From: Bacillota bacterium
GTDB taxonomy: Bacteria; Bacillota; Sulfobacillia; JAJZYS01; JAJZLH01
Assembly (NCBI GenBank): GCA_021803575.1
Contig: JAJZLH010000057.1
Span: forward strand, 1-33,450
Direction: 5' to 3'
Length of the DNA: 33,450 nt
The notes under the pieces were generated by a model, which worked only from the letters and a program-made list of their open reading frames with translations, was not told the DNA's origin and did no database searches. This document shows positions 6,067 to 10,628 of the stretch, piece after piece; within the stretch, counting starts at the first letter, position 1; each line of letters starts with the position of its first letter. Both the position numbers and the translations under genes were made by a program.

Positions 6067-7875
6067 CTATTCGACGGTCACCGACTTGGCCAGGTTGCGC
6101 GGCTTGTCGATGTCGGTCTGACGGAGGAGCGCCACGTAGTAGGCGAGCAACTGCAGGGGCAGGGCCGCCAGCACCGGCGCCAGTTCGTCGCGGCCAGCCG
6201 GCAGGACGAAGACGTGGTCCAGTTCCTGGCGGTCAAGCAGGTCATGGCTGGTGATGGCGTAGACCCAGCCGCCGCGGGCCTTGATCTCCGCCAGGTTGGA
6301 GAGCGTCTTGTCGATCAGGTCACCCTGGGTAAGCAGCGCCACCACCGGCACCCCCGCCTCGATCAGGGCCAGGGTGCCGTGCTTCAGTTCGCCGGCGGCC
6401 AGCGCCTCGGCGTGCAGGTAGGAGATCTCCTTCAGCTTGAGCTGCCCCTCCATCGCCACCGCGTAGTCGGTGCCCCGGCCGACGTAGAAGACGTCTTGGG
6501 CCTGGCTGAGCCGGGCGGCCACCGCCTCGATCTCCTGCTCCTTCTGCAGGACCAGTTCCGCTTTCTCCGGCAACGCCCACAGCTCTTTGGCCCACGCCTG
6601 CTCCTGGGCGGCGGTGAGGCGGCCGGACGCCTTGGCGTAGGCCAGCACCAGGAAGGTGAGGGCCAGGATCTGCGTGGTGTAGGCCTTGGAGGAGGCGACG
6701 GCGATTTCCGGTCCGGCCAGGGTCGGCACGTTCAGTTCCGCCTCCCGGCTGATCGAACTGCCGATCACATTGGTGACGCCGATCACCCGCGCTCCCATCG
6801 CCTTGGCCTGGCGCATGGCGGACAGGGTGTCCAGGGTCTCTCCGGACTGCGAGACGGCAACCACCGTATCCTCCCCGCCCAGGGCCAGGTGGCGGTAGCG
6901 GAACTCGCTAGCCAGCTCTGCCTCGGCCGGGATGGCGAGCACGTCCTCGGCCAGGCGGCGGGCCACCAGCGAGGCGTGGTAGCTGGTGCCGCAGGCCACA
7001 AACCACAGTTTGCGGGGCAGGGGGCCGGGGTCGATCTCCAGCTGGAGTTGGCTGAGATCTTCGCTGAGGCGGCCGGCCATGGTCTGGCGGAGTGCGCGGG
7101 GCTGCTCCCGAATCTCCTTGATCATGAAGTGGGGCAGACCCCCGCGCTCGGCCTCTTCCAGGTTCCAGCCCACCTCCAGGGGTGTGCGCTCGACCTCTCC
7201 CTCCTGGTTGTAGATGTGGGCCGCCTCGGCGCTCAGCACCACCACCTCGCCGTCCTCCACCACCACCACCCGCCGGGTGTGGCTGATCAGGGCCGGGATG
7301 TCCGAGGCCAGCATGTTCTCGCCCTCGCCCAGCCCGATCAGGAGCGGCGAGTCCTGGCGGGCGGCGCCGACGGCGTTCGGGTCCTGGGTTCTCACCACCG
7401 CCAGGGCGTAGGTGCCGCGCAGGCGGGCGGTCACGGCCTGGAGGGCCTGGCGCAGGTCTCTGTCGGAGTACTCCTCCAGGAGGTGGACCACCACCTCGGA
7501 GTCGGTCTCGGAACGAAAGCGGTGCCCCCGGGCCTCCAGTTCCCGGCGCAGGGCGGCGTGGTTTTCGATGATGCCGTTATGGGCCACGGCGACGTCGCCG
7601 TGGCAGCCGAGGTGCGGGTGGGCGTTCTGTTGATTGGGGCGGCCGTGGGTGGCCCAGCGGGTGTGGCCGACGCCCACCCGGCCCGAGAGCCCCCGGCCGG
7701 CCAGCACCTCTTCCAGCTCGGCGATCCGCCCTGCCGTCTTGACGAAGCTGAGCTGGCCCCCGTCCATCACCGCCACCCCGGCCGAGTCGTAGCCGCGGTA
7801 TTCCAGCCGGTTGAGACCGGCCAGTAGGAACGGCACGGCCTGGCCTTGTCCCGTGTATCCAACGATGCCGCACAT
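6067..7875 (-). CDS. glmS: Glutamine--fructose-6-phosphate aminotransferase (isomerizing)
   Basis: Makes glucosamine-6-phosphate from fructose-6-phosphate and glutamine, the committing step of UDP-GlcNAc and peptidoglycan precursor synthesis. The product is 602 residues, the normal length. The start is fixed by chemistry: the ATG at 7875 puts Cys second, to be exposed as the catalytic N-terminal nucleophile (MCGIVGYTG). Seen: the glutaminase loop HTRWATHGRPN, two SIS isomerase domains (VACGTSYHASLVAR and, later, YVGRGTDYAVAMEGQLKLKE), and the conserved C-terminus PRNLAKSVTVE. An AGAGAGGA ribosome binding site precedes the ATG. The approximately 170-base leader is a glmS ribozyme, so expression is predicted to fall when GlcN6P accumulates. 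glmM lies upstream on the same strand. Confidence 0.98.
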   Translation of the reverse strand: MCGIVGYTGQGQAVPFLLAGLNRLEYRGYDSAGVAVMDGGQLSFVKTAGRIAELEEVLAGRGLSGRVGVGHTRWATHGRPNQQNAHPHLGCHGDVAVAHNGIIENHAALRRELEARGHRFRSETDSEVVVHLLEEYSDRDLRQALQAVTARLRGTYALAVVRTQDPNAVGAARQDSPLLIGLGEGENMLASDIPALISHTRRVVVVEDGEVVVLSAEAAHIYNQEGEVERTPLEVGWNLEEAERGGLPHFMIKEIREQPRALRQTMAGRLSEDLSQLQLEIDPGPLPRKLWFVACGTSYHASLVARRLAEDVLAIPAEAELASEFRYRHLALGGEDTVVAVSQSGETLDTLSAMRQAKAMGARVIGVTNVIGSSISREAELNVPTLAGPEIAVASSKAYTTQILALTFLVLAYAKASGRLTAAQEQAWAKELWALPEKAELVLQKEQEIEAVAARLSQAQDVFYVGRGTDYAVAMEGQLKLKEISYLHAEALAAGELKHGTLALIEAGVPVVALLTQGDLIDKTLSNLAEIKARGGWVYAITSHDLLDRQELDHVFVLPAGRDELAPVLAALPLQLLAYYVALLRQTDIDKPRNLAKSVTVE

Positions 7876-7910
7876 ATGCATTTGTCCTCTCTTGGCTGTC
7901 TGGTGGCAGG

Positions 7911-8081
7911 CGTAAGGTGGCCACCTGTCTGTGCAGGTTGCCTTAGCGGGGGTGTCCAGTCTGTCCCGTCCGTCACCGTCCGGATTTCTGGGCACCTATC
8001 GGCACCGCCGTGCCGCGGGGTATCCGCCGAAACCTTCGATAAACCCCGACCTCGTCCACTCGCCAGGCGAGTGCAGGCGCT
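7911..8081 (-). ncRNA. glmS ribozyme (GlcN6P-activated self-cleaving riboswitch)
   Basis: The leader of glmS on the minus strand matches the glmS ribozyme core. Reading 5' to 3': the cleavage site A|GCGCC, with the cut predicted between 8081 and 8080; a P1-like hairpin CACTCGC/GCGAGTG (8073-8067 with 8063-8057); GACGAGG; GGGG (8047-8044), which can pair with CCCC (8020-8017); the invariant GTTTATCGA; and TTTCGGCGGAT (8032-8022). A six-pair stem CGGCAC/GTGCCG (8015-8010 with 8005-8000) follows, then a nested 3' hairpin with outer stem TAAGG/CCTTA (7945-7941 with 7917-7913) and inner stem ACCTG/CAGGT. Known of the family: GlcN6P acts as cofactor for cleavage, which exposes the glmS message to degradation. 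Order, spacing, core bases and position directly upstream of glmS all agree. The 3' boundary is approximate. Confidence 0.93.
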
Positions 8082-8121
8082 TTGAGACGAATCGATGCTG
8101 TTGTGCCGCCCTCCTTGCCGG

Positions 8122-9465
8122 CTACCCCCCCTCTCGGTCCAGCCGCCCGATCAACGCCATCAGATTGTCCCGAATGGCAGCACAGATTGCAAGGTCCGGC
8201 CCCTCCACCATCACCCGGATCAGGGGCTCGGTGCCGGACGGCCGGATGCTGACCCGGCCGCTCGGTCCCAGCCGGGCCTGCTCCGCCTCCTGGGCCGAAA
8301 GCAGCCGCGGGTCTTTGGCCAGGCGCGCCTTGTCGCCCACCGGCCGGGCGGCCTCCAGGTGCGGGTAGGGCTCAAAGCAGGCCTTGGCCTCGGCCAGGCT
8401 CTGCCCCGTCTCCCCGAGCAGCCAGAGCAACAGCACGGCGGTCAGGAGCCCGTCGCCGGTCGTGCTGAAGTCCAGCGCCAGGAGGTGTCCGGACGGCTCA
8501 CCGGCCAGGCGGTAACCCGTCTGGCGCAGGCTCTCCAGGAGGTAGCGGTCGCCGACCGCCGTCTCGGCCACGCGCACGCCCCGCTCGGCCAGCATGGCCC
8601 GGAGGGCGCCGTTGGCCAGCACGGTGAGGGCGACCCCGTCTCTCTTGAGCCAGCCGTGACGGCGGAACCAGGGTGCGAACATGCCGATCAGGTGGTCCCC
8701 GCTCACCGCCTCACCATGCTCGTCCACCGCCAGCGCTCGGTCGGCGTCGCCATCGAAGGCGATGCCGATGCTGCCCTGGCCCCTGGCCCGCACCGCCCGG
8801 GCGAGTGAGCTGAGGTCGGTCGAGCCGCAGCGGACGTTGATGCGCCGCCCGTCCGGCCGCCCGTGCAAGAGGGTGACCTGGGCGCCAGTCGCCGCCAGCA
8901 CCTGACGGGCCACCGGCGCCGCGGCCCCCCAGGCGCAGTCCACCACCACCTGGCGGCGGGTGAGGGGGCAGCCCAGCTCGCCGAGGTGGCGCACGTAGGC
9001 CTGGCGGAGGGCACCGGCTGCCCGACGGCGGCCGACGCCCGGCCCGAGCGGGCGGGGGGCGCCAGGCCCTCGGATCGCCGCCTCCAGCCGCTCCTCCTCC
9101 CGGTCGCTCAGCTTGAAGCCGTCCGGCCCGAAGATCTTGATGCCGTTGTCCTCGACCGGGTTGTGGCTGGCGGAGATCATGACGCCGGCACTGGCGCCGT
9201 GTGCCTTGGTGGCCCAGGCCACGGCGGGCGTCGGCAGGACGCCCAGCTCAAGGACGTCCGCCCCGGTCGCCATCAGTCCGGCGCCGACCGCCGCCTCCAG
9301 GAGGTCACCGGACAGCCGTCCATCCTGGCCGATCAGCACCTCGGGCCGGCTTCCCTTCCGCCCCAGGTCCTCACCCAGGGCCAGACCGATGGCGAAGGCC
9401 AGCTCAGGGCTGAGCTCGGCGTTGGCCACGCCGCGCACACCGTCGGTGCCGAAATACTGCCGCAA
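8122..9465 (-). CDS. glmM: Phosphoglucosamine mutase
   Basis: Converts glucosamine-6-phosphate to glucosamine-1-phosphate, the step after GlmS. The 447-residue length is typical. Seen: N-terminal FGTDGVRG, the phosphoserine loop MISASHNPVEDNGIKIFG, the metal-binding loop FDGDADRAL, and the C-terminal phosphate-binding RPSGTEPLIRVM. The start is TTG at 9465-9463: AGGGAGGA lies seven bases upstream and the product then begins MRQYFGTDG as family members do. It follows cdaR by 13 bases, giving the cdaA-cdaR-glmM order conserved in Bacillota, where CdaA and GlmM are known to interact. The glmS ribozyme starts about 40 bases after the stop, with no clear terminator or promoter between. Confidence 0.97.
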   Translation of the reverse strand: MRQYFGTDGVRGVANAELSPELAFAIGLALGEDLGRKGSRPEVLIGQDGRLSGDLLEAAVGAGLMATGADVLELGVLPTPAVAWATKAHGASAGVMISASHNPVEDNGIKIFGPDGFKLSDREEERLEAAIRGPGAPRPLGPGVGRRRAAGALRQAYVRHLGELGCPLTRRQVVVDCAWGAAAPVARQVLAATGAQVTLLHGRPDGRRINVRCGSTDLSSLARAVRARGQGSIGIAFDGDADRALAVDEHGEAVSGDHLIGMFAPWFRRHGWLKRDGVALTVLANGALRAMLAERGVRVAETAVGDRYLLESLRQTGYRLAGEPSGHLLALDFSTTGDGLLTAVLLLWLLGETGQSLAEAKACFEPYPHLEAARPVGDKARLAKDPRLLSAQEAEQARLGPSGRVSIRPSGTEPLIRVMVEGPDLAICAAIRDNLMALIGRLDREGG

Positions 9466-9478
9466 TGGGCTGTCCTCC

Positions 9479-9829
9479 CTAGGGTGTGATCCGCACCTGG
9501 GCCGGTTCCGACTCCACCAGCGCCGTGCCGGCCGGGCCCACCAGCCGGACTGGGGCCAGCCCGCCCCGGGGGCCGGGGTCGGTGGCCGTGGCCTGGAGCG
9601 CGCCGGGACTGAGCGCGGAGAGGAGCGAGCTCGGGCCTTCCACCACCAAGGTCACCGTACCCGGCACCGCCCGGACGCCCACGCCGCCGCCCACCACCCG
9701 CACCGGCACAGCGGCGAAGCTCTTCTCCACAATCGGGTCGGACTGCGAGATGACCGCCGCCCACACCGCCCCGGCCAGGAGCAAGGAGACCACCGCCAGC
9801 ACCCAGCGCCGGCCCAGCCACCTATCCAC
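9479..9829 (-). CDS. cdaR: Minimal YbbR-domain protein (CdaR-like)
   Basis: Membrane-anchored partner of the c-di-AMP cyclase CdaA, judged by position and architecture. The protein is about 116 residues: an N-terminal membrane segment (WVLAVVSLLLAGAVWAAVI) and one outward-facing YbbR-like domain in which ISQSDPIVEKSFAAVPV followed by a beta-rich segment ending VRITP fits the family pattern. Well-studied CdaR proteins carry three or four YbbR domains, so this is an unusually short form. I chose the GTG at 9829 because AGGGAGG sits eight bases upstream; another GTG at 9838 is too close to that site. The start overlaps the cdaA stop by eight bases. The gene lies between cdaA and glmM, the usual place. 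Confidence 0.82.
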   Translation of the reverse strand: MDRWLGRRWVLAVVSLLLAGAVWAAVISQSDPIVEKSFAAVPVRVVGGGVGVRAVPGTVTLVVEGPSSLLSALSPGALQATATDPGPRGGLAPVRLVGPAGTALVESEPAQVRITP

Positions 9830-10628
9830 GGGCCCCACCTCCCTGCCAGCGCTGGGCCAGGTGCGACTCCAGCAAAGACCTCAGCCGCCGCTCATCCAGA
9901 TAGCGGACCAGGCGGCCGCCGCTGGCCACGCTGATGGCGCCCGTCTCCTCGGAGACCACGATCACGGTGGCGTCCGACACCTCGCTTACGCCAATCGCCG
10001 CCCGGTGCCTGGTGCCGAGGTCGCTCGGCACCAGCGAGGTGGCGGCCAGCGGCAAGAAACAGGCGGCGGCCAGCACCCGGTCGCGGCGCACGATCACGGC
10101 ACCGTCGTGCAGGGGCGTGTTGGGGGCGAAGATGTTGCACAGAAGCTGCCAGGACACCCTGGCCCCCAGCCAGGTGCCAGCCGCCGCCAGGTCGGCCAGC
10201 CCGGTCTGCCCCTCCAGCACGATCAGGGCGCCGATGCGCTGCCTGGAAAGCCGGAGCGACGCCTGGACCACGCCCTCCACGGCGGCGGTCATATTGGGCT
10301 GGCCGTCATCGCGGCCGACCAGTCCGTCCAGGAAGCGGGCCCGGCCCAGCCGCTCCAGGGCGCTCCTGAGCTCGGGCTGGAAGACGACCGGAATCGCCAC
10401 CAAAAGCCCGACCAGGGCCGTCTCCAGGACGACGTGCAGTGCCTCCAGCCCAACCAGAGCCGACAGTTCGGTGCCGACCGCCACCACCACGATGCCCTTC
10501 ATCAGCTGGAAGGCGCGGGTGCCGCGGATGGCCAGCAGGATGCGGTAGAAGAGGTAGGCGACGATCAGGATGTCGAGCGCATTCTGGGCGAGGGTGAGGG
10601 GGCTCATGGCCAGGACCCTAAGCCACAC
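9822..10628 (-). CDS. cdaA: Diadenylate cyclase (c-di-AMP synthase)
   Basis: Makes cyclic di-AMP from two ATP; in Bacillota this messenger controls potassium and osmolyte balance and wall homeostasis. The 268 residues consist of three N-terminal membrane segments (about 15-85) and a cytoplasmic DAC domain. Seen: the catalytic DGA motif at 175-177 (TPLHDGAVIV) and the RHR motif at 207-209 (GTRHRAAIG), both intact, plus the VSEETGAIS block. The GTG start at 10628 is preceded by GGGAGGAG; an ATG at codon 8 is an alternative with less support. The gene overlaps cdaR by eight bases and follows a GNAT-like gene by 19 bases. The GNAT and rex genes directly upstream are in the same transcription direction. 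Confidence 0.96.
   Translation of the reverse strand: MWLRVLAMSPLTLAQNALDILIVAYLFYRILLAIRGTRAFQLMKGIVVVAVGTELSALVGLEALHVVLETALVGLLVAIPVVFQPELRSALERLGRARFLDGLVGRDDGQPNMTAAVEGVVQASLRLSRQRIGALIVLEGQTGLADLAAAGTWLGARVSWQLLCNIFAPNTPLHDGAVIVRRDRVLAAACFLPLAATSLVPSDLGTRHRAAIGVSEVSDATVIVVSEETGAISVASGGRLVRYLDERRLRSLLESHLAQRWQGGGARG

Follow-up and report, generated by a model that had tools for sequence, protein, structure and literature searches.

A complete glmS ribozyme in the glmM-glmS interval of an uncultured Bacillota bacterium

Introduction

The leader of glmS in a GC-rich genome of an uncultured Bacillota bacterium raises the question of whether it carries a complete and ordinary glmS ribozyme, or one whose stems have been rebuilt for a special purpose. 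A preliminary description of this DNA had claimed a full glmS ribozyme, and had taken stems rebuilt with G-C pairs as the mark of a special, possibly heat-stable variant. Crystal structures of the Thermoanaerobacter tengcongensis glmS ribozyme are cited in two of the papers used here (PMC7125110, PMC11602151). In the published mechanism GlcN6P binds the folded RNA and joins in acid/base catalysis, and in B. subtilis RNase J1 degrades the cleaved mRNA, which carries a 5'-OH (PMC11602151, PMC3997798; the mechanism also in PMC7125110). Here we analysed the whole stretch of 33,450 nucleotides that contains the leader, referred to below as the window, together with the rest of the assembly and genomes of the same class. 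With a probability of about 0.95, we consider this an orthodox glmS ribozyme, one that would give product feedback on GlcN6P synthase; cleavage and mRNA decay are expected from what is established for the family.

Results

Identification and extent of the ribozyme

Based on a search of the 33 kb window with the Rfam covariance models, we found a full-length match to RF00234 on the minus strand at 8092-7942, which scored 94.2 bits (gathering score 37; E 6.6e-21) and covered model positions 1-167 of 167. No other Rfam family exceeded any cut-off in the window, and RF00234 was present as a single copy in the whole 1.52 Mb assembly (E 7.0e-23). The full ribozyme that had been proposed is thus borne out by the very covariance-model search suggested for it on the minus strand. 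The motifs listed for it, including A|GCGCC, were all found in the order given, and the cut proposed between 8081 and 8080 is correct, since AGCGCC at 8081-8076 aligns with the Rfam consensus AGCGCC. The span of 8081-7911 was shifted, as the family match starts 11 nt before the cut (at 8092) and ends at 7942, which leaves 7941-7911 as leader past the ribozyme end, outside the RF00234 match. Judged from its sequence, the element is a complete, ordinary glmS ribozyme between glmM and glmS, with predicted activity. It adds one member to an established family and calls for no new mechanism.

Genes around the ribozyme

The ribozyme and the neighbouring genes all lie on one strand:

6067-7875, minus strand: glmS, the regulated gene, beginning MCGIVGYTG with Cys at position 2 (TIGR01135, 743.6 bits)
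7942-8092, minus strand: glmS ribozyme (GlcN6P riboswitch), full length (RF00234, 94.2 bits, E 6.6e-21)
8122-9465, minus strand: glmM, 29 nt upstream of the RF00234 match (TIGR01455, 460.7 bits over cut-off)
9479-9838, minus strand: short CdaR-like open reading frame of 119 amino acids with a single membrane segment and a single YbbR-like domain (PF07949)
9822-10628, minus strand: cdaA, diadenylate cyclase (TIGR00159, 236 bits over cut-off)

The order is cdaA-(cdaR-like)-glmM-ribozyme-glmS, and the order cdaA-cdaR-glmM-glmS has been described in B. subtilis (PMC6171935). The ribozyme sits in the 5' leader of glmS, the start codon of which lies 66 nt past the RF00234 match. The ATG at 7875, which puts the predicted Cys next to the initiator, is the most probable start, because the genus relatives do not share the other candidate, an ATG at 7881. 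The PF07949 (YbbR) match of the CdaR-like frame was weak (E 0.04, under the Pfam cut-off). A homologue with about 62-63% identity occurs in both genus relatives, and as the short frame is kept there, a reduced CdaR seems to be the rule in this genus.

A scan of 7800-9700, limited to sigma-70-type promoters and terminators, returned no promoter-like or terminator-like site, and a promoter or terminator proper to the ribozyme was rejected on this ground. Transcription from glmM into the ribozyme is therefore plausible. The leader past the ribozyme (7941-7876) folded no better than its shuffles. A short hairpin, ACCUG...CAGGU, was seen just past the ribozyme at 7940-7918 (minus strand), and it recurs in two genus relatives with its inner pairs changed.

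Anatomy of the RNA

The elements of the RNA were assigned as follows:

8080-8081, minus strand: predicted cleavage site A(-1)|G(+1), within the aligned AGCGCC
8057-8073, minus strand: P1 hairpin, 7 bp CACUCGC/GCGAGUG with a 3-nt loop CUG, read from the sequence
8025-8079, minus strand: P2.2 pseudoknot, read against the P2.2 pairs in PMC7125110
8037-8054, minus strand: P2.1, CGA 8054-8052 with UCG 8039-8037, read from the sequence
8016-8048, minus strand: P2, CGGGGU 8048-8043 with ACCCCG 8021-8016, from the strand-swap test (55 genomes)
8000-8015, minus strand: P3, CGGCA/UGCCG (8015-8011/8004-8000), with L3 being CGGCGG 8010-8005, from the RF00234 match and genus comparison
7945-8009, minus strand: P3.1 pseudoknot, GGCGG 8009-8005 with CCGCU 7949-7945, from the class-wide strand-swap test and genus comparison
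7951-7996, minus strand: P4 (GGUG/CACC and CCAG/CUGG around a C-A mismatch), the P4 purine loop IL4, and P4.1, from the sequence and genus alignment

The P2.2 pairs are C8079-G8025, G8078-C8026, C8077-G8027, C8076-G8028 and G8074-C8029, with U8075 bulged; the pairs named in the literature are C2-G56, 5-53 and 7-52, and P2.1 is described there as residues 28-30/43-45 (PMC7125110). The conserved strings GACGAGG, AUCGA and UCGGCGG are unaltered. The core helices P1, P2, P2.1 and P2.2 can be drawn, as can the pseudoknot of P3 and P3.1, the GNRA loop that caps P4.1 and the greater part of the purine loop in P4. The P1 segment, at 19 nt, is among the shortest in the class but not unique.

Both pairings singled out in the preliminary description are present, and both needed reassignment: GGGG/CCCC belongs to helix P2, and CGGCAC/GTGCCG is P3 (8015-8010 with 8005-8000), the inner part of which doubles as the L3 strand of P3.1. 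P2 closes with a U-A pair, and many class members have U-G there. The IL4 purines are AAA 7987-7985 and ACAGA 7964-7960, with one A to G change. P4.1 is capped by a GUGA tetraloop of the GNRA type (7976-7973). It also contains a tandem G-A/A-G (7980-7979/7970-7969), and the alignment shows normal pairing at this step in one of the genus relatives (G002).

A nested minimum-energy fold of the ribozyme was no more stable than its shuffles (z -1.1, with a program that does not model pseudoknots), and such single-strand folding is uninformative here because pseudoknots are excluded.

Conserved pairing in P2 and P3.1

We compared the pairing of each strand with its own partner to that obtained when partners were swapped among genomes, in 500 shuffles. 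For P2 the mean was 15.64 with own partners against 13.24 with swapped ones (sd 0.25; 55 genomes), and for P3.1 it was 14.34 against 12.05 (sd 0.30; class-wide); in both tests 0/500 shuffles reached the observed value. As the swaps ignore relatedness, these figures measure conserved pairing and not the number of independent events.

Members of the genus have GGCGG in L3 where GCCAC is usual, with matching alterations in the 3' strand (CCGCU, CCGCC). The sequences of P2 and P3.1 have thus changed relative to the class with their pairing retained, and these natural re-pairings are consistent with published mutation maps. In this copy P3.1 has four Watson-Crick pairs and one G-U, which is weaker than in the genus relatives; taken alone, its L3 pairs equally well with 11 of the 53 tails from outside the genus.

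One reading that departs from an ordinary ribozyme is genus-specific: P3.1 would have been rewired throughout, and the P2 closing pair (U-G to U-A) and the purine loop (ACAA to ACAG) would have changed together, perhaps adjusting how IL4 packs against the core. We regard this as unlikely. The coupling of ACAG with the U-A pair of P2 was rejected as inconsistent over the class, in which there are other members with only one of the two changes.

Base composition and the question of heat stability

Adaptation to heat through GC-rich peripheral stems, a possibility raised in the preliminary description, is quite unlikely, even though P1 and P3 of this copy are mostly G-C. Ribozyme GC followed flanking GC in a regression over 56 genomes of the class (r = 0.865), and this copy fell under the line: the ribozyme has 64% GC in surroundings of 72%, its residual of -0.056 (z -1.9) is the third lowest, and by ribozyme GC it takes 35th place. 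Neither of the two genus relatives keeps the CAC/GTG pairs in the inner part of the P3 hairpin CGGCAC/GTGCCG. A crude amino-acid index of six proteins of the window, used without a control, would suggest a thermophile at ~71 C. We set this estimate aside because the GlmS control gave equally high values in gut bacteria; the index of GlmS itself (0.450) was ordinary, being inside the range of the other compared GlmS proteins, gut bacteria included. A search of the genome gave no full-length reverse gyrase over cut-off, and a 16S rRNA for a temperature estimate was not found in the assembly. The claim of a special, heat-stable variant is accordingly unsupported, and the high GC of the stems is best explained by base composition, which follows that of a GC-rich genome.

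Distribution across the class

Among the 61 genomes (this one and relatives throughout the class), 57 had a glmS ribozyme at E <= 0.001, and 56 were over the Rfam cut-off. The glmS gene was found downstream in 53 of 58 places and glmM upstream in 44 of 58; the exceptions to the glmM-ribozyme-glmS placement are mostly one family of the same order and contig ends. Since the ribozyme is present in 57/61 genomes, this copy is, from the sequence comparison, an inherited ortholog. The other glmS ribozymes of the class are orthologs of it, mostly in the same place.

The exceptional same-order family (G005-G014) differs in its core and P4 variant, GGGGAAAA, and lacks glmM in the 900 nt upstream. Its members (L118, L121, L122, L123, L125, L127, L128, L130, L131 and L133) carry the variant core UGGGGGAU CUCGG, their P4 purine loop has GGGGAAAA replacing ACAA, and their P3.1 is GCCUG/CAGGC. 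One further genome (G039) had two glmS-ribozyme matches (L116 and L134), and GlmS was not found within 700 nt after the second of these.

Discussion

The glmS ribozyme is a standing part of this Bacillota class, usually between glmM and glmS. In the proposed function, plentiful GlcN6P would bind a pocket already formed in the double-pseudoknot core and serve as the acid/base cofactor. The RNA would then cut itself between A8081 and G8080, leaving the glmS part with a 5'-OH, and the glmM part of a shared transcript would be set free by the cut. The glmS part would be degraded by RNase J, so that GlmS synthesis would drop. The genome encodes an RNase J (TIGR00649, 651 bits, cut-off 400), and together with the family mechanism this makes feedback repression of glmS the likely function.

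The ribozyme might still be a decayed one, in which the fold was kept and cleavage was lost or slowed through the change of ACAA to ACAG and a short P3.1. In the P4 purine loop this copy has ACAG for the conserved ACAA, and ACAG is uncommon, being found in 7/56 class sequences. The mutation map of the B. subtilis ribozyme shows sensitivity to change at the run of adenines in IL4, and functional roles are described for IL4 and L4 (PMC11602151). Because these adenines were mapped as sensitive, slower cutting is conceivable, and this copy might cut more slowly; yet ACAG is common to all three genus members. Furthermore, the reactive core is intact, and the matched changes in P2 and P3.1 suggest that selection has continued; this speaks against decay, which we consider very unlikely. 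The idea that the likeness arose by chance, or that the glmS leader holds some other RNA, is refuted by a full-length match of E 6.6e-21 at the expected genomic place that is repeated in relatives.

On the preferred reading, that of an orthodox glmS ribozyme, this copy contributes a natural example rich in GC to a ribozyme family that has been very well studied. The B. subtilis system is alike in family, target gene, gene order and the place between glmM and glmS, as well as in the P4.1 GNRA loop, the P3/P3.1 pseudoknot and the double pseudoknot of the core. This copy differs from it in the GC-rich P1 with a 3-nt loop, in the P3.1 strands GGCGG/CCGCU, in one base of the P4 purine loop (G for A) and in the short cdaR-like gene. 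P1 of this copy is shorter than in the T. tengcongensis glmS ribozyme. With that ribozyme it shares the core strings GACGAGG, AUCGA and UCGGCGG and the arrangement of P2, P2.1 and P2.2, whereas P2 closes with U-A in this copy and with U-G in T. tengcongensis.
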